Source: Triparma columacea
Taxonomy: Eukaryota > Sar > Bolidophyceae > Parmales > Triparmaceae
NCBI GenBank assembly: GCA_030267965.1
Contig: BRYA01000385.1
Span: 22,905 to 86,904, forward strand
Reading direction: 5' to 3'
Length of the DNA stretch: 64,000 nt
Below, in pieces: positions 938 through 35,520 of this stretch. The first letter of the stretch is position 1; each line of letters starts with the position of its first letter. A program made the position numbers and the translations under genes. Below the pieces are notes generated by a model. That model made no database searches. It was given only the letters and a program-made list of their open reading frames with translations, and had not been told where the DNA came from.

Positions 938-1602
938 TTTCCTACATTATTGACGGGAATAAGGAGGGTTAGTGTGGTGTGATGAGTAAGAACAAGGGAG
1001 AGGGATGGTGAGACCCCTCAAGGATGCGTCATTGCGGCGTCAATGGCGGTTATCTGTGCGATAGTAGCCCAACATAGTACTAACAGCATCGGAAATATGG
1101 CCGAAAGTAGTATTATCTCCTCTATGAGACGAAAAATCCAACCCAATGTCCACTCCGTCAGTCGACCGTGATTTGAAGAGTGGAAATAACTTGAACTTGG
1201 TCGTGAATAGGAGATATAAATCAATAATAGGACAAATGACAACTGGTGAAGGCCTTGGAAACGTGTTATCACTGTCATTGTTGTCCTTCTTACCTTAATA
1301 TGAAAGCTGTTATTTTGCTCCCTTCTCTCATCCGGAGACCATTCCATCCCACTGAGGAAGACCTTATTTACCTTAGCTTATTTATAGAGTCGAACGAATA
1401 TAAATACGGGGTTAATTACGTATATGCAATGCCTCCGACTCGAACTTTACAGGTTACGTGAGATGGGTAAAAAAGCAGGTTAATGTCAACGTGTCATGGT
1501 CATATATATTTAATTATCGGTAGAAATATAGCGACGCTTTCACAATACAAAAAAAAACAAATTTCGCCCCTCTTTCGTTGCGCGCTGCAACAAAAAAAAA
1601 TT
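938..1602. other. Intergenic; no convincing gene
   Basis: This stretch separates the first LRR gene from the tRNA-Pro gene. A 109-codon minus frame (1018-1347) contains a hydrophobic segment, but it has no recognisable domain, no splice context and no paralogue here, so I do not call it. The 3' part is A/T-rich with A-runs near 1549-1558 and 1592-1600; the second is the T9 tract of the minus-strand tRNA gene. Confidence 0.6.
1592..1600 (-). terminator. T9 tract after tRNA-Pro, probable RNA polymerase III terminator
   Basis: On the minus strand the tRNA discriminator base (1603) is followed by two A residues and then nine T residues. A T-run just after the mature 3' end is the standard eukaryotic Pol III stop. 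No run of four or more T occurs on this strand inside the 416-bp gene (1603-2018), introns included, so Pol III could read through the whole unit. Position and length are seen directly; termination is inferred. Confidence 0.8.
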
Positions 1603-2018
1603 GGTCCGAACGGGGATTTCTAGAAGGAAGGAGAATAGCAGGTAAGAATTGATCTGGACGGGTGAAAGAATGTGGAATTACTTACGAACCCCGCTGTTGG
1701 AAGAAGGGAGAGATATGTGTAAGTTGAGAGCTGAATAAAGGGGGGCATGTGCATGTATTACTTACGACCTCTCTGAGTAATCGAAGATAGAGACATGTAT
1801 AAGTTGAGAGCTGAATAATGGGAGATGTGTGCATGTGGTACTTACTCCACCCACTGTGAAGGAAGGAAAGACGAGGGTGAGACGGGGTTGTGGAGACTCA
1901 TACATGTGACAACGATATGACTTACAAGGAAGAATCATGCCTACGATAAATGTGGTAAGAATGTGATCGCGGTATGGGAGAAGGAAACGTGGAGCGCTCA
2001 CCCCTAGACCATTCGGAC
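1603..2018 (-). tRNA. tRNA-Pro(UGG) interrupted by five GT-AG introns
   Basis: Six exons on the minus strand: 2002-2018 (17 nt), 1926-1940 (15), 1846-1853 (8), 1766-1772 (7), 1686-1693 (8) and 1603-1619 (17). Joined they give 72 nt, the usual tRNA-Pro length. The acceptor stem GTCCGAA/TTCGGAC pairs 7/7, the anticodon stem CTTCC/GGAAG 5/5 around loop TTTGGGT (anticodon TGG), and the T-stem CGGGG/CCCCG 5/5 around loop TTCAAAT; the discriminator is C. D-arm and loops match eukaryotic tRNA-Pro (TGGTCTAGGGG; GGTTCAAATCC). The introns (1941-2001, 1854-1925, 1773-1845, 1694-1765, 1620-1685) begin GTGAGC or GTAAGT and end TAG or CAG. They interrupt the D-loop, the site just 5' of the anticodon, the 3' strand of the anticodon stem, the variable/T-stem junction and the T-loop. 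None is at the canonical 37/38 site. The unbroken pairing argues for a functional gene rather than a pseudogene; the splicing machinery is inferred. Confidence 0.88.
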
Positions 2019-2073: not shown

Positions 2074-2324
2074 AGCGGGAAAGTTGATTTTTTAATATGA
2101 TTTTAATCCTTTGCTGGTCCCAGAGATATCGACCCAAAAATCTCCTTATATATATAACCCTTGATACACACCGTAGCATTCAACCCTCTTTCACACAGAA
2201 CCCTCTTTGTAGACGGACTCTAGACGTTCAAAACAAGCAACCCATCCTTCTGAGAGTATTTTGTGGGTTACCTCGTCGATTGCTCGAGTAGGGTAGGGTT
2301 GTGTGTTGCATTGTTTTGGTTAGA

Positions 2325-28184: not shown

Positions 28185-28581
28185 ATCACGCACACACACT
28201 CTTCGCACACCTTTTCATCACCCGCACCACCAAAAAATTTACGCCACAAAACCCAATATCCCATCCTCAACATCATCAAAAGCAAAACAGAATTCTCCAA
28301 TTTTTTTTGCTCTACGACCACCATAACCTCCCAAAAACGTTCCTCCCACCTTCACTCTATCCCATCTACCCATCCTCCAAAAACAACCAAATTCCGTCAC
28401 CATCTACCCGAATTCCACTCCCCAACTCAGAAATTCTTTCATCGCTGAGAGAAATTTTATACCATTTCCAACACATTTTCACTCCGTATCTTCATCATAT
28501 CAACATTCAACATAATCGCACACTCTCCAACCGCCACGAACACGTTTATTCCATTTTTCACCCCCAAACAAACCCCTCATC

Positions 28582-30453
28582 ATGTCCACTTTCACCACTC
28601 CTCCACTTCCTGCCAACGCAACATCCGTTACGCCGCCAAACGCACCAACGGAACCTCCCCTTATCGTAACCGCCACGCTCATTCAAGATAGCGTCATCGC
28701 CCTCATCCAGACCATTCTCTCAAAAGAGTCCTCATGGGATGACTCTACTTCAACCGACGCCAACATAACCGATGCCGCACTCGCCACACTCATCGACAAA
28801 ACTGCCTACACATGCGAGCAGCGCGTCGACACCTTCTACGTCAATTCAATCTGCCCGAAGTCCAGGAACCTACTCGCCAGCTACGTCACTGGTATTCAAA
28901 ACCACATCAAGAACCTACGCACAGTCATAGTTCACGAAGTTCAGGAGGATCTTTCACTCTCTGAGCTACTGCTAGTAATCGCTCCAGACGAGCCCACCCC
29001 CGCACAATCCGTAGCACCCCAAGAAACCATCCTCAACCCCACCCACACCCAGAGTATCCTCAGACATCTTGTCGAGCTCCACTCAATCTTCGTCCCTACC
29101 GCGCGGGAACTCTCAGCCCGGGCTACCCTCGAAACTACCATGAATCCCACCGGCACCGCAGGGCCAACCTCAACAAACTCAACCACGACGATCCTCACAC
29201 CACTTAAACACCTTATCCACGACCTCGCTCAACGCGAAAAGCAGGGCACTCCAGCCCCCTCCTTCCAGTACATGATCGAAATCATATCTACATGCATCAA
29301 AATCAGAACCGGCCTCCTCGACACCCGCGCTCTCAATACAATGCAGAAGGACGTTAACGCGATCCTTAAAGCACTACATCTCGACAACTCCAACGCACGC
29401 CTACCCAACTCTCACGCTCACAAACTACTAAGCTTCATCTACGACTCTGCCAACGGAACGATGACGGGTCTCATGACCCAACTTTCCCAACCCGACATCC
29501 TCCTCACCCACTTCAACACGCACAAGGAGCGTTCGCCCACGAGCCCCATCTTCAACGAGGCTTCGGCAGCTCCCTTCATCCCACCTCCCAGCTACATCAG
29601 GAGCTTCCCCGACTTCTACAATTACTTTAACTCTGTCCTCATCATCAACACTCTCACCACCAACTCACATCCAAACATATTCTTCCGCCAGACCCTCGCC
29701 ATCTACATCGCAACACACACCCCGTTCAAGGACGCTCCCCAGGATCTCATTACCAAGCTTCACAACCTCCTCGTTGGCTACAACCCCTCCTCTGACCCTT
29801 ATTTCCACGAAGATATCTCTACACACTCCACAGTCGCAGGACAAAACTCACAGTCCTTCTTCGCCAGAACTCTCTTCGAGTTCGTTCAACCCAACGCACC
29901 CCATAACAAGCCGTGGCCGCACTTCTCGACCACTCCAACCAACCCAACCTACGCATCATCAACCTCCAAGAAATCAGCATCCTCAAAATCCTCACCCGCC
30001 AAAGCCGACAAACGCACCAACCACCGCTCGAACACTTTCGCTGCGAAACTCGATGCCTTCATCTCCCACCCCAAAATCAACCAAATCTCAAACAACATCA
30101 ACTACGATCCCGACCAGCACCCCAGCGACTACGACGAACTTAAGGCACTCTTCACATGGGGAAACGGGGAGCTCATACGCAACCCTAACTACGACCCTAC
30201 CAAACCCATCCTCGACGTCACCAACATCGACATTTCCTCACCGCCCTACAGCAAAATGCACGACGATGCATCCTCCAACACACCAGGTAAACCCTGTAAC
30301 TACGATCTTACCACAGCCTCTTCTTCCCCCAACACCTTGTGCTGCATCCTCCACGGTTTTGGCAACCACGACTCAGCCAAGTGCCGCGCCCTCGCCGCTC
30401 AACGCAACTCCAACAGCCCCTTCATCATGGAGTATAACGACACCCACTCCTGA
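28582..30453 (+). CDS. Copia Gag-like protein, 623 aa
   Basis: Open from ATG at 28582 to TGA at 30451-30453. The body is helical and Thr/Pro/Asn-rich, as in copia capsid proteins. The C-terminus has a zinc-knuckle-like CILHGFGNHDSAKC (C-x2-H...H-x4-C) before the stop, after a Ser/Lys-rich linker. A 412-bp leader precedes it. The pol frame continues in the same phase directly after the UGA with no other stop, so Gag-Pol could be made by stop-codon readthrough. Confidence 0.88.
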   Translation: MSTFTTPPLPANATSVTPPNAPTEPPLIVTATLIQDSVIALIQTILSKESSWDDSTSTDANITDAALATLIDKTAYTCEQRVDTFYVNSICPKSRNLLASYVTGIQNHIKNLRTVIVHEVQEDLSLSELLLVIAPDEPTPAQSVAPQETILNPTHTQSILRHLVELHSIFVPTARELSARATLETTMNPTGTAGPTSTNSTTTILTPLKHLIHDLAQREKQGTPAPSFQYMIEIISTCIKIRTGLLDTRALNTMQKDVNAILKALHLDNSNARLPNSHAHKLLSFIYDSANGTMTGLMTQLSQPDILLTHFNTHKERSPTSPIFNEASAAPFIPPPSYIRSFPDFYNYFNSVLIINTLTTNSHPNIFFRQTLAIYIATHTPFKDAPQDLITKLHNLLVGYNPSSDPYFHEDISTHSTVAGQNSQSFFARTLFEFVQPNAPHNKPWPHFSTTPTNPTYASSTSKKSASSKSSPAKADKRTNHRSNTFAAKLDAFISHPKINQISNNINYDPDQHPSDYDELKALFTWGNGELIRNPNYDPTKPILDVTNIDISSPPYSKMHDDASSNTPGKPCNYDLTTASSSPNTLCCILHGFGNHDSAKCRALAAQRNSNSPFIMEYNDTHS

Positions 30454-33400
30454 AACTCTGCCGCGCCGATACCGACGACGACGCCACCCTCGACGGCGCA
30501 CTCAATAACCGAAACCGCAACCACACCTACAACCCATATCCACGCATATCTTACGCACACTCGCCCAAACTCTTCCGACCCTCACCCGGTGATCTACGAC
30601 ACTGGCTCTAACGCTATCATCGCACCTTTTAACACACTTCACGACCGTAAACCTCTCATACATCACATCCCCATCGGCACCTCCGCTCAATCCATCGAGC
30701 ACGCCACCGCCAACAAACCCGCACTCACCGCAACGCACGTAGGAACTCTAAAACTACTCATCCCTCACAACAACCAAATTTGGTCGCTCGACAACGCCTA
30801 CGAGTGCCCGAATGCACACACTATTCTCTTCCCCTTCAACCGAGAGAAAGGGTACTTCGACCCCAACTCTCCCAACAAACACGGAACCCTCCACTCACCC
30901 CACGGTAACATTTCTCTCTACATAGGAACCCTCAACGTTCCCCAGCTCCACGTAAAAGTAATTCTACCATCACTCACTTCCAACGCTACGATAACCTCCG
31001 ATCGTAGACTACGTTCTCACTCCAAAAACGACGCCCCGACACAACCACAACCCACACCTACCGTCCCCGAACTTTCTGAGTCACCTCCGCAGCCAACGCC
31101 ACTCCACACACCAACGACTATACCACCTCTCCCACCCCCCGACCCCGACAAACACCAGCAACTGATCGACTACTCCGTCGCCGCAACAGCTCACGCCACA
31201 TTAGGTCATCGCAACTACAACGACCTGCAAGATATGTATAAGTTCAACACAATCCGCAATCTGCCAAACATAAAGACTGTACTCCATCACAACAAAACCC
31301 TCCCGTGCCGAGCCTGCATGGCCGGCAACACCCACCGCTCGCCCTCTCCAAAGAAAACCCGAACTCTCACCGTCCCTATCGTTCGAAAACGAGTTAGCTT
31401 CAGTTTCGACCGACTCACCTCCCCCGACCTTTCCCTCGACGGCCACAAATACGGCCTGATACTAATCGACAATATCACCAAAAGAGCCTGGGGATGGCTC
31501 CTCAAAACTAAAACTGAACAAGAATTCCTCGACGTGGTCATCGACGGAAAGAACCGAAACCGTGTCTCCATTCTATCAATAATCCAAGGTGCTCACTCCC
31601 AACTACAACACCTCGAAATCTCCATCCACGATCCACCCAAACTCCCCGAGAACTTTCTCACTCCCATCACCGACCCCAACGATAACTCCAATTATTTCCC
31701 CACCCACGTCGGCACAACGAACGACCTCGACGCTACTCGCGGCGAACTCGGTTCCGCCGACACCCGCCTCCACACCGACAACGAGGACACTTTCTACACA
31801 GACCTCGTCGTCAGAAAACTCAACCTCTACGGCGCTACCGTAACCCGAACACCCCCCTACACACCCTCTCGCAACGGCTTTGTCGAACGCCTTCAAGGCA
31901 CCCTTGCCTCCATGACCCGCGCAGCCATACAGCACGCCAACGTACCCAAGGCCCTCTGGTCTGACATCTTCATGATGCAGCTAGTGCATTACAATTGCTG
32001 TCTACACTCCTCGCACCGCGAACTGGTGAGAGAAGCCAAACGTAACCCTTCCCACTCCATCCCGGCCGCCCTTCTCAAAATGAAAGCTCCCATCGAACTC
32101 GACACTGGCTACAAACCCGACTACGACCGAACTTACGCACCCTACACACCCGGCTACGCCTGGACTCACAAGGCCCCAAAGAACCAAACCTACGCGCAAA
32201 AACGGAAATGGGACCCGCGAGGCCGACAGGCTATCGTAGCCGGCTACGTGAACCCCAACATGGGTATCCCTTCAAAAATCCTCATCCGCTACACCGACGG
32301 CCGTCCGCTCAATGAATTAATCAACGATCCTACCTGCGACTTCCATAAACTTCATGAATGCGGCCACTTCAACGCAGACCGCACTTTCTCCATAGCTGGG
32401 GAAACCTCTATCGCCCAATCCCACAACATTCTCCCACGCAACACTCAAAAGCTCCAAGAGCTTCTTGCACGCCTTCCAAAAGAACTTCTCGACCACGAAC
32501 CCTCACACTCTGATGTCATCATCGACAAAAACGCACAATCCACCCTTTCTCGCAACCTCCCGAACACAAGTCACAGCCACGGCGGCAGGGGCAGAGGCAG
32601 AGGCAGAGGAGGAGGAAGAGGCAGGGGTAGAGGACGAGGACGAGGCAGAGACGGAGGTCGCACCAGTCGCACCTCACCAGCCACACGCCTCACGCAACTT
32701 GAAAGCATCCAACAATCTCTCCCCGCACTACCTCCCACGGCCACAAATCCTCACATCGGCACAACCGACTCGCTCCACAATCTGAACTCCAACCTCTCTA
32801 CAACAGCCAACTCAACTCGAGCGAACAACACCAACAACGTCCGCTTCAACCTCCCTGTTCGATTTAAACACGCCACGCAAACACTCTTCTTCGATGATCA
32901 CTCACCTTCATACGGAAGCCTGACCCACAAAACTGAAACAAAACTAGCACCCGCTCCTCGCTTTTCACGAGGTACCGAGCCCGTCATCCCCACCCACAAA
33001 CTATCCGATAACTCTCCTACACATCTCTCCGTCATGGACCACATCGCGTCCTGGAACAACTACAACACTCGTCAAGACCCTGACACATGCGACTGCGACC
33101 AAAACTGCTCATGTCATTACACAGCACTCGACCATTCCGAAAATCTCACCTTCTCCTCCTTCTCAAGACTACGTCACCCCCGACATGGTCTTCGCGTCGC
33201 TCACAACGCAAATCCTCACTCCCCTTACCACGTTCTTTCCCAACTCTCAATCCTCCAAAACATCAACGACATGTACCACACCGAACCCTCCGACCCAACC
33301 ATAACACACTTTAACCACGAGTTAAGTGACTCGAAATTCACGAAGAACAGCATCGAGATCGCGCCCTCCACGCGCAACTTAGCAGACTCCCTCAATTCGT

Positions 33401-35520
33401 TCACTTCCTTCTTACCACGCGCTCACAACCTATCCTCCAATACCTTCGATTTCAACAAGCAACCAACCGACTCCAATCAGGCAACTCTCATATCCGACAA
33501 TGAAAACCCCCACTCAAAACCCACTTCTACGCACTTCCAAACTTCAGACTTCAACGAAGTCAAGGGACTCATTGATTCCAACGCCTTAGTCCCCATTTCA
33601 ACCGCCTACGACAACCTCAAGAATTTCACCATCGTCGACGTCATGGTCGTCCGCAAATTCAAACCTACGGACGATCCAACATCGTTCACAGCAAAATCCC
33701 GGCTCGTTCCACGTGGAGACACCATCGCCTACAGCGATAACACCTCCAATACTGCCCACCTCCAACCCCGCCCTCTAACCTACGCACCAACCATCGACGC
33801 AATCCCGAAACGAATCTTCTTTAACATCGCCTCTTCTAACGGCGCCAACTGCCAACTCCTCGACTTCACCCAGGCCTTCGGTCAACCTAAACTCGATCCC
33901 AACGGACCACAATACCTCCTCCGTTACCCTCCCCGCTACCGCACCCCCGAAATCGACCAACTTCTCATCAATCATTGTACGCAAGACTCTCCCGACGCGC
34001 CCACCATTATTCCCTCGAACTCTCACTATATACTACTACGCCTCAATTCCTACCTCTACGGCCTACCCGAAGCCGCAAGAAAATGGTACCTACTCCTCAC
34101 CAAACACGTCATGGACCTCGATTACGAGCAACACCCAAGATGGCAATGTTTCTTCAAACGGATCGAACCCGACTCGTCAGTCTCTTTTCTGATCCTCCAC
34201 GTCGACGACATCGTCGGAATGAACGACGGATGCCAAGACGACCACATCAGCCAAACCTTTAACGAACTTCGTCAACACCTCACCGCTAAGGAGCACACCG
34301 ACCTCAACGGCTCGTACTTCCTCAACGTCCGCTACATCCAGAACGACGACCGTACCTGGACAGCGGACCAACACTCCTACATTGAAAACCTCAGGCTCAA
34401 ATTTCCCATCTTCCCTCAAACACGCCAGCACCCAACAACCCAGCTCCCCGCCAACTACGACATCGGACTCGGAGGCGACAGCACTTGCGAAACCGACGTC
34501 CTCGCACTAGAAGAACACTTCAATTTCCAATACTCATCGCTCGCAGGCAGCCTCATTTACTTGCTTGAAACCAGAGAAGACGTGCGCGCAAGCACCGTCT
34601 TCGTCTGCACCCACTCCAAACTACCCGGACGTAAACACTTCCTCGCTATAAATCACCTGCTCAACTACATTTACGAGACCAAGCATCTCGTATTCAACTT
34701 CGCCAAACGCTACGCGAAAACTCACTCCCTACACGCCCTCACCGAATCCTACCCACCGACTCCTAAAGACCACATAAGGTACCTCTTCAGCCCACGCCTC
34801 GCCAACGGCAAGGCACCAGAGCTTCCTGATGGCCTCCCGCCTAACAAATCAGGCTTCCTCGAAGTGTTCCACTGCTTTGATGCAGAGCACAAATCACATA
34901 CAAACGGAAAAGCAATCCTAGCATACGCGATATTCTACGGCAACAGCCTCATCCAATTTAACGTTAAGATTCCCAAACTCACGGCACCCGACACCACCTG
35001 TGCGGAGGCACAAGCCTCCTCAGCGGGCGCCGCCTCACTATCAAACATTGTGTCAAACCTCGAACTCTTCAACATCTACAAACTCGACCGTAGTAACCCA
35101 CCTCCCACCTTCTGCGACAACAAGAGCCTCGTAGAATGCATAATCAACCACAAAGACACTCCGATCCCACACACCCAACCCCACATCCGTCTACACGCGC
35201 AACGCCTTCACGACTACCACCGCAACGGCGACACCGCCCTCTCTCACATCTACTCCGCCCTCAACACTTCCGACATCGGCACCAAGACCCTCCCCAAAAT
35301 CGCCAATGCCATCCACACAGCCTCACTTCTCAACATGCAACAAACCGACGATAAGTGGTTCACTCGCATACTTCAACCCATCGCAACTCGCGCAAAACTC
35401 GAGCACGACTCCCTCATCGCCATCATCGACGACGCCGATTCTGACTCGAATCCCGACATTGACGACTACGACGTCAAAATACCACACCAGCCTTCCCTCT
35501 CCCCTCCCGGGGGGGGTTAA
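30454..35520 (+). CDS. Copia Pol: protease, integrase, reverse transcriptase, RNase H
   Basis: Open in the gag phase from the codon after UGA to 35520 (about 1688 residues). No ATG is close to the start, consistent with readthrough. The aspartic protease motif YDTGSNA is at about 30595. The integrase zinc finger (HATLGHRNY...CRAC) is at about 31190-31320, and its core has HTDNED near 31770 and NGFVERLQG near 31880. A Gly/Arg-rich RGG-like tract at about 32578-32680 separates integrase from reverse transcriptase. RT motifs are QLLDFTQAFGQ (33850s) and LHVDDIVG (34196). The RNase H region runs from HCFDAEHKSH (34870s) to SDIGTKTLP (35270s). All catalytic residues are present, so the element looks competent. 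Confidence 0.92.
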   Translation, partial: NSAAPIPTTTPPSTAHSITETATTPTTHIHAYLTHTRPNSSDPHPVIYDTGSNAIIAPFNTLHDRKPLIHHIPIGTSAQSIEHATANKPALTATHVGTLKLLIPHNNQIWSLDNAYECPNAHTILFPFNREKGYFDPNSPNKHGTLHSPHGNISLYIGTLNVPQLHVKVILPSLTSNATITSDRRLRSHSKNDAPTQPQPTPTVPELSESPPQPTPLHTPTTIPPLPPPDPDKHQQLIDYSVAATAHATLGHRNYNDLQDMYKFNTIRNLPNIKTVLHHNKTLPCRACMAGNTHRSPSPKKTRTLTVPIVRKRVSFSFDRLTSPDLSLDGHKYGLILIDNITKRAWGWLLKTKTEQEFLDVVIDGKNRNRVSILSIIQGAHSQLQHLEISIHDPPKLPENFLTPITDPNDNSNYFPTHVGTTNDLDATRGELGSADTRLHTDNEDTFYTDLVVRKLNLYGATVTRTPPYTPSRNGFVERLQGTLASMTRAAIQHANVPKALWSDIFMMQLVHYNCCLHSSHRELVREAKRNPSHSIPAALLKMKAPIELDTGYKPDYDRTYAPYTPGYAWTHKAPKNQTYAQKRKWDPRGRQAIVAGYVNPNMGIPSKILIRYTDGRPLNELINDPTCDFHKLHECGHFNADRTFSIAGETSIAQSHNILPRNTQKLQELLARLPKELLDHEPSHSDVIIDKNAQSTLSRNLPNTSHSHGGRGRGRGRGGGRGRGRGRGRGRDGGRTSRTSPATRLTQLESIQQSLPALPPTATNPHIGTTDSLHNLNSNLSTTANSTRANNTNNVRFNLPVRFKHATQTLFFDDHSPSYGSLTHKTETKLAPAPRFSRGTEPVIPTHKLSDNSPTHLSVMDHIASWNNYNTRQDPDTCDCDQNCSCHYTALDHSENLTFSSFSRLRHPRHGLRVAHNANPHSPYHVLSQLSILQNINDMYHTEPSDPTITHFNHELSDSKFTKNSIEIAPSTRNLADSLNSFTSFLPRAHNLSSNTFDFNKQPTDSNQATLISDNENPHSKPTSTHFQTSDFNEVKGLIDSNALVPISTAYDNLKNFTIVDVMVVRKFKPTDDPTSFTAKSRLVPRGDTIAYSDNTSNTAHLQPRPLTYAPTIDAIPKRIFFNIASSNGANCQLLDFTQAFGQPKLDPNGPQYLLRYPPRYRTPEIDQLLINHCTQDSPDAPTIIPSNSHYILLRLNSYLYGLPEAARKWYLLLTKHVMDLDYEQHPRWQCFFKRIEPDSSVSFLILHVDDIVGMNDGCQDDHISQTFNELRQHLTAKEHTDLNGSYFLNVRYIQNDDRTWTADQHSYIENLRLKFPIFPQTRQHPTTQLPANYDIGLGGDSTCETDVLALEEHFNFQYSSLAGSLIYLLETREDVRASTVFVCTHSKLPGRKHFLAINHLLNYIYETKHLVFNFAKRYAKTHSLHALTESYPPTPKDHIRYLFSPRLANGKAPELPDGLPPNKSGFLEVFHCFDAEHKSHTNGKAILAYAIFYGNSLIQFNVKIPKLTAPDTTCAEAQASSAGAASLSNIVSNLELFNIYKLDRSNPPPTFCDNKSLVECIINHKDTPIPHTQPHIRLHAQRLHDYHRNGDTALSHIYSALNTSDIGTKTLPKIANAIHTASLLNMQQTDDKWFTRILQPIATRAKLEHDSLIAIIDDADSDSNPDIDDYDVKIPHQPSLSPPGGG

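Follow-up and report, generated by a model that had tools for sequence, protein, structure and literature searches.

Spliceosomal-type GT-AG introns split many tRNA genes in the alga Triparma columacea

Introns of eukaryotic nuclear tRNA genes canonically lie at position 37/38 and are removed by tRNA endonuclease. mRNA-type introns in non-coding RNA genes are known as isolated cases, in U6 snRNA of fission yeast and some basidiomycetes and in rRNA of lichen fungi. Genes with one to several introns per tRNA, D and T arms included, are described for Cyanidioschyzon merolae and for the nucleomorphs of cryptophytes and chlorarachniophytes (PMC4090602, PMC3978253). In C. merolae 34 of the 43 nuclear tRNA genes are disrupted, and these accounts ascribe the C. 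merolae and nucleomorph introns to tRNA endonuclease, with bulge-helix-bulge motifs in C. merolae (PMC4090602, PMC3978253). The tRNA genes of Triparma columacea analyzed here resemble these systems in the number and placement of their introns. However, the Guillardia insertions are 3 to 24 nt long (PMC4090602, PMC3978253), whereas those found here are GT-AG introns of 57 to 148 nt, 33 of 34 of them with branch-type motifs. They likewise differ from the canonical tRNA introns, which this genome also contains, in position, length, sequence signals, and presumed enzyme. As in the fungal cases, a spliceosomal-type intron lies within a non-coding RNA gene, but here many tRNA genes are affected, with up to five introns each, and the U6 snRNA gene, which is present in the genome, is uninterrupted. 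In the open-access literature, a scope that excludes many subscription papers and all preprints, we found no other organism for which spliceosomal introns within tRNA genes have been described; this does not prove priority. The main text of one paper that ran tRNAscan-SE (PMC10328945) contains no word starting with "intron" or "splic".

The window, that is, the whole 64-kb stretch of DNA analyzed, contains the tRNA-Pro(UGG) gene whose features are given below, all on the minus strand.

2018-1603, minus strand: whole tRNA-Pro(UGG) gene, six exons of 17, 15, 8, 7, 8, and 17 nt and five GT-AG introns
2002..2018, minus strand: exon 1, 17 nt
1941..2001, minus strand: intron 1, 61 nt, GTGAGC...TAG, with TTCTTACC 15 nt before the 3′ splice site
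1926..1940, minus strand: exon 2, 15 nt
1854..1925, minus strand: intron 2, 72 nt, GTAAGT...CAG, at tRNA positions 33/34, beside the anticodon and not at 37/38
1846..1853, minus strand: exon 3, 8 nt, with the anticodon TGG
1773..1845, minus strand: intron 3, 73 nt, GTAAGT...CAG
1766..1772, minus strand: exon 4, 7 nt
1694..1765, minus strand: intron 4, 72 nt, GTAAGT...CAG
1686..1693, minus strand: exon 5, 8 nt
1620..1685, minus strand: intron 5, 66 nt, GTAAGT...TAG, interrupting the T loop (56/57) and hence the internal B box
1603..1619, minus strand: exon 6, 17 nt, the 3′ acceptor strand and discriminator base
1592..1600, minus strand: T9 run of RNA polymerase III terminator type, beginning 2 nt past the discriminator base
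2080..2094, minus strand: upstream element TAAAAAATCAACTTT, a putative polymerase III promoter common to other tRNA genes of the genome
2020..2069, minus strand: tandem duplication CACTTGTGATGAAARTCACAA, located after the upstream element and before the gene

A sequence-only reading had proposed that the removal of five GT-AG segments would leave an intact 72-nt tRNA-Pro(UGG). We reproduced the segment lengths of 61, 72, 73, 72, and 66 nt exactly, and all 17 stem pairs formed in the joined 72-mer (acceptor 7/7, anticodon 5/5, T stem 5/5), which ARAGORN named tRNA-Pro(TGG). The donors (GTGAGC once, GTAAGT four times) and the branch-type motifs (CTTAC, CTCAC, CTTAT, CTTAC, and CTTAC in introns 1 to 5) were likewise as described. 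ARAGORN found no tRNA in the unspliced gene, even when introns at the anticodon were allowed, and in the raw window it again reported none, with nothing from Rfam at the gathering score. Our own search program (the finder), whose model is limited to GT-AG introns, tRNA stems, and a few conserved bases, recovered the same parse unprompted with a score of 24.9. Elsewhere in the window, long open reading frames at 28516-35520 resemble a Copia-type retrotransposon as judged by eye. A protein encoded in the window is 89% identical to its counterpart in Triparma retinervis, 57 to 58% to those in T. verrucosa and T. laevis f. longispina, and 54 to 77% to further sequences among the matches listed, in keeping with an alga of the Parmales (Bolidophyceae), the group that is sister to diatoms.

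We extended the analysis to the 37.85-Mb assembly of 789 contigs; this assembly may be incomplete, and every count from a search of the genome is a lower bound. With the Rfam tRNA model (63 of 675 candidates scored) we obtained at least 14 matches at E ≤ 0.001 and at least 22 at E ≤ 10. Ten partial or weak matches comprised eight exons of other split tRNAs and two sequences resembling decayed Arg-CCG copies. DNA queries with an element found downstream of many tRNA genes yielded the Trp, Thr-CGU, Met, Ser-AGA, and Val-AAC split genes, and an upstream element used as bait gave 43 new sites, 40 of which were fetched. The first 20 of these contributed four new split tRNAs; in the second 20 (L098-L117) the finder, which misses some tRNA types, detected no tRNA. 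The split genes parsed numbered 18, of 17 kinds and with 34 introns, second copies of Val-AAC and initiator Met being left out of these counts.

Five introns: Pro-UGG
Four introns: Ser-AGA
Three introns: Thr-AGU, Ala-CGC
Two introns: initiator Met, Thr-CGU, Arg-UCU, Arg-UCG, Val-AAC
One intron: Lys-UUU, Arg-CCU, Leu-UAG, Gln-UUG, Leu-CAA, Trp, elongator Met, two Pro-CGG

Once spliced and given neutral flanks, all 17 kinds were correctly named by ARAGORN (for Met, with the 37/38 intron removed as well), and each had the stems, conserved loops, and sensible anticodon of a nuclear tRNA cloverleaf. The shortest exons were the 5-nt first exons of Ser-AGA and Leu-CAA and internal exons of 7 to 8 nt. 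Of the 18 genes, 15 were recovered by the finder. A T33 filter made it miss the initiator tRNA, and a distant terminator the two genes for Pro-CGG; we parsed these three by eye and confirmed them with ARAGORN. For Val-AAC, the top finder parse had a spurious 1-nt first exon and we adopted a two-intron parse. The weaker parses are those of Leu-CAA (three G-U pairs in the acceptor stem), Ser-AGA (a GTCAGT donor), and Pro-CGG (longer introns). The Pro-CGG genes lie in tandem on the reverse complement of one locus (L017, ~1495-2240), each with one GT-AG intron, at 64/65 and 63/64. These longer introns measure 108 and 148 nt, and both genes are without a nearby 3′ T-run. Downstream of the pair, by eye, there is a remnant and then a putative intact selenocysteine tRNA (TCA).

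Other tRNA genes had no GT-AG intron, namely Lys-CUU (two), Ile-UAU, Thr-UGU, Ser-UGA, Leu-UAA, Leu-CAG, Gly-CCC, and Arg-CCG. Classical introns were also present. Both the finder and ARAGORN placed a 10-nt intron at 37/38 in Val-UAC and, in elongator Met, a 37-nt intron at 37/38 in addition to the single GT-AG intron. A classical intron of 26 to 28 nt is probable in Pro-AGG, where ARAGORN sets the intron elsewhere and calls Leu(TAG), and one in Trp is ambiguous, ARAGORN reading that gene both with and without it. The D-arm motif TAGCTCAGTTGGTAGAGC, which many tRNAs share, occurred with up to two mismatches at only five sites in the genome, all within known tRNA genes, and the reversed pattern at none; this rarity fits a widespread interruption of D arms. 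This partial census turned up no form of many isoacceptors, among them Asn, Asp, Cys, Glu, His, Phe, and Tyr. In addition, several tRNA-Arg(CCG)-like copies (L005-L008, L019, L024), some degenerate, have neither the shared element upstream nor the one downstream and are possibly SINE-like.

All 34 introns begin with GT and end with AG, with lengths of 57 to 148 nt (median 66). The donors were GTAAGT in 18 introns, GTGAGT in seven, and nine others; 30 of 34 fit GTRAG, with a purine at +3 in 33 and G at +5 in all 34, and the four outside GTRAG were GTGCGT, GTCAGT, GTACGC, and GTACGT. A CTNAY motif stood 8 to 60 nt before the acceptor in every intron except that of Gln-UUG, that is, in 33, compared with 21.0 ± 2.6 (maximum 28) in 300 dinucleotide shuffles. 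The narrower CT[TAC]AC was found in 30 of 34, compared with 12.0 ± 2.7 (maximum 20) in the shuffles. The median distance from branch motif to acceptor was 20 nt, and the pyrimidine-rich AG acceptors noted in the window gene recurred across the 34 introns, with 81% pyrimidines before the acceptor. For comparison, alignment to Parmales proteins placed seven mRNA introns of 73 to 184 nt in two protein genes of the window. Their donors were GTACGG, GTGAGT, GTGAGA (four), and GTAAGA, and they had CTNAY motifs and CAG or TAG acceptors. Relative to these, the tRNA introns were shorter and T at +6 was commoner; on this sample of seven introns from two genes, the tRNA introns look like members of the same class. 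Their near-consensus GT...AG ends, branch motif with a pyrimidine-rich acceptor, and mRNA-like signals are those of U2-type introns.

We also compared the introns with one another, taking as the 0.1% cut-off a similarity score of 59 from shuffles (null maximum, 68 of 4000). Pairs above it included intron 1 of Arg-UCU and Arg-UCG (114), introns 3 and 4 of Pro-UGG (96), which are sisters with 58 of 74 aligned columns identical, introns 5 and 1 of Pro-UGG, each with intron 1 of Leu-CAA (80 and 72), and intron 1 of initiator Met with intron 2 of Val-AAC (73). Part of each score is due to the shared branch motif and pyrimidine tract. In a DNA search, Pro-UGG intron 1 matched Leu-CAA with 90% identity over 40 nt. 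These likenesses suggest that some introns were copied within and between tRNA genes, which recalls introner elements, spliceosomal introns that multiply (PMC11782384, PMC12730881). Unlike described introners (PMC11782384, PMC12730881), no high-copy family was seen here in a DNA search that skips very common words, and in such a search the full five-intron gene found one relative.

The flanks of the split genes point to RNA polymerase III. A T-run followed all 26 tRNA genes measured, 16 of them split (Pro-CGG left out), and in those 16 it was a T7-T9 run 1 to 21 nt after the tRNA. Runs of six or more T occurred inside none of the 34 introns compared with 1.5 expected, which is weak as proof of polymerase III. 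The upstream A-rich element YAAAAAATCNNNWTT had 54 matches in the genome compared with 19 for the reversed pattern. It preceded most of the tRNA genes measured, and it lay 26 to 76 nt before the gene in all 12 measurable split genes, a set that excludes four loci starting too near the element that served as their bait and the two Pro-CGG genes. The T-runs and this shared element suggest transcription by polymerase III from an upstream promoter, and YAAAAAATCNNNWTT is a candidate polymerase III promoter of Parmales. Such a promoter would account for the tolerance of introns in the T loop, and hence in the B box, in 7 of the 17 split kinds. A possible U3 snoRNA gene (L079; Rfam E 9e-5, 29 bits compared with a gathering score of 80) also adjoins the upstream element. 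Beyond the T-run, about 40 to 70 nt after many tRNA genes, split or intact (L015, L018, L020, L034, and others), we observed the downstream element GAGAGGAGCAYGCTGGCAAAGTTTGAGAGTGATTGGAG, which a hairpin seems to precede in several copies; it was not seen after the window tRNA-Pro(UGG) gene. Its core, with up to three mismatches, occurred at 18 sites in the 37.85 Mb, all 18 beside tRNA genes, and the reversed pattern at none.

Taken together, these data favor the suggestion of the sequence-only reading that the spliceosome may process this tRNA: the intron signals, their likeness to mRNA introns, the lack of bulge-helix-bulge structures (see below), and 17 more split genes all support it. We infer from gene anatomy that the spliceosome removes the tRNA introns. 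Very probably, U2-type introns have invaded many tRNA genes, and much of the cytosolic tRNA set of this alga is matured by the spliceosome.

A different enzyme would be involved if the introns were ectopic ones cut by tRNA endonuclease as in C. merolae and the nucleomorphs, with incidental GT-AG ends. The genome does encode a catalytic tRNA endonuclease domain (PF01974, E 6e-12), classical 37/38 introns occur in Val-UAC, Met, and probably Pro-AGG, and other algae are known to have tRNAs with several introns that this enzyme cuts. However, exon lengths place none of the 34 GT-AG introns at 37/38, and no junction of the 34 had the central helix of a bulge-helix-bulge (0.13 expected by chance); any 4-bp pairing across the junction was rarer than chance (7 compared with 11.2 ± 2.1). 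A defined bulge-helix-bulge is also missing from many ectopic introns in the tRNA genes of the Guillardia nucleomorph (PMC3978253), so that its absence here is insufficient alone as proof. Against cleavage by endonuclease there are also the 34 GT-AG boundaries, near-consensus donors, and 33 branch-type motifs, signals which that enzyme does not need. On the junction pairing and signal tests together we rejected this explanation, which we regard as improbable.

Slightly less probable still is that the split genes are dead or transposon-like copies, with working tRNA genes elsewhere or in unassembled DNA. A review places most non-canonical introns elsewhere in eukaryotes in presumed pseudogenes (PMC4090602), the searches of the 37.85-Mb assembly are lower bounds, and Arg-CCG does have several tRNA-like copies without the shared flanks. 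An intact tRNA-Pro(UGG) gene had been named beforehand as one of the findings that would speak against spliceosomal processing; none was found, either with the 72-mer alone, a search run without a control, or with a concatenated query. The latter joined 13 spliced split tRNAs (Leu-CAA, Trp, Met, and Pro-CGG being the 4 of 17 kinds left out) to two intact controls. Both controls were matched at full length, but among the 19 genome matches of this lower-bound search there was no uninterrupted copy of the 13 kinds. The other matches were exons at their own loci, split paralogues (initiator Met, Val-AAC), two intact Lys-CUU (88%), and Leu-CAG (80%). With their short exons, the loci of Pro-UGG and Thr-AGU gave no match to the query. 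In the 15 automatically parsed genes, moreover, the stems are mostly intact, and the terminator-like T7-T9 run is retained in all 16 split genes measured.

Second copies also bear on whether the split genes are dead. Between the two copies of Val-AAC the exons are identical, and all differences fall in introns or flanks. Both copies found of the initiator tRNA, ~6.5 kb apart on one contig (L118, L086), are split. Intron 2 is shifted by 3 nt from one to the other, and changes on either side compensate, so that the joined sequence there is unaltered. In the second of these copies, 2 nt of the D stem in the first exon have been lost and the upstream element looks worse; this copy may be decaying, and to that extent it agrees with a dead-copy reading. 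Given these copy comparisons and the lack of intact copies of the 13 kinds searched, we rejected that reading.

A free choice among many GT-AG pairs gives some freedom to assemble a cloverleaf by chance. The best false parse scored 18.0 on both strands of the 64-kb window and 19.3 in 117 fetched loci, compared with 24.9 for the true parse. With GT-AG, all 15 loci of a decoy test were parsed as split tRNAs, 14 at or above the threshold of 20.5; the donor bonus was removed in this test, which left the window gene just below, at 20.2. Seventy decoy dinucleotide pairs parsed on average 0.49 of the 15 loci. Decoy parses fell mostly at the single-intron loci Met-CAT and Trp-CCA, and of the eight multi-intron loci only Thr-CGT was ever parsed, with TG donors. 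We note that the finder gave one false positive, a one-intron parse of an intact Arg-CCG, and alternative parses of some genes that extend to the next T-run. With 17 different spliced isoacceptors recognized by ARAGORN, low false-parse scores, and few decoy parses, we dismissed chance as scarcely credible. Permuted or trans-split tRNAs were likewise rejected, as the exons are colinear, within 137 to 416 nt, in all 18 split genes.

For maturation by the spliceosome, we propose the following pathway. RNA polymerase III would make a long precursor, as the T-run terminators and shared upstream A-rich element suggest. Across each short intron, the spliceosome would recognize the strong GTAAGT or GTGAGT donor, a CTTAC-type branch site, and the AG acceptor, and the introns would be excised one after another. 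Cloverleaf folding and end trimming would come after splicing. In many genes the acceptor or T stem is not a local helix beforehand, so that folding could occur only after splicing, and since the 5-nt first exons are extended by the 5′ leader, RNase P and 3′ trimming should follow splicing as well. Exons of this kind, 5 nt at the 5′ end and 7 to 8 nt internally, are extreme for a spliceosome, and polymerase III transcripts are unusual as its substrates. The classical 37/38 introns, including that of tRNA-Met, would be left to tRNA endonuclease; elongator Met, with both intron types, would need both machines.

tRNA splicing is taught as a system apart from that of the spliceosome, and here the two appear to meet in essential genes. 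If this is true, the spliceosome works on polymerase III transcripts with exons of 5 to 8 nt, and intron gain in structural RNAs becomes open to study. Standard tRNA finders would then miss many tRNA genes in such genomes, and tRNA annotation would need an added class of tRNA gene. For the Parmales, the genomic data make it likely, if somewhat less so than spliceosomal maturation itself, that the spliceosome is obligatory for much of the cytosolic tRNA set, the initiator included: one to five introns would have to be removed before end trimming, tRNA-Met and perhaps tRNA-Trp would need both splicing systems, and translation would depend directly on the machinery of mRNA splicing.
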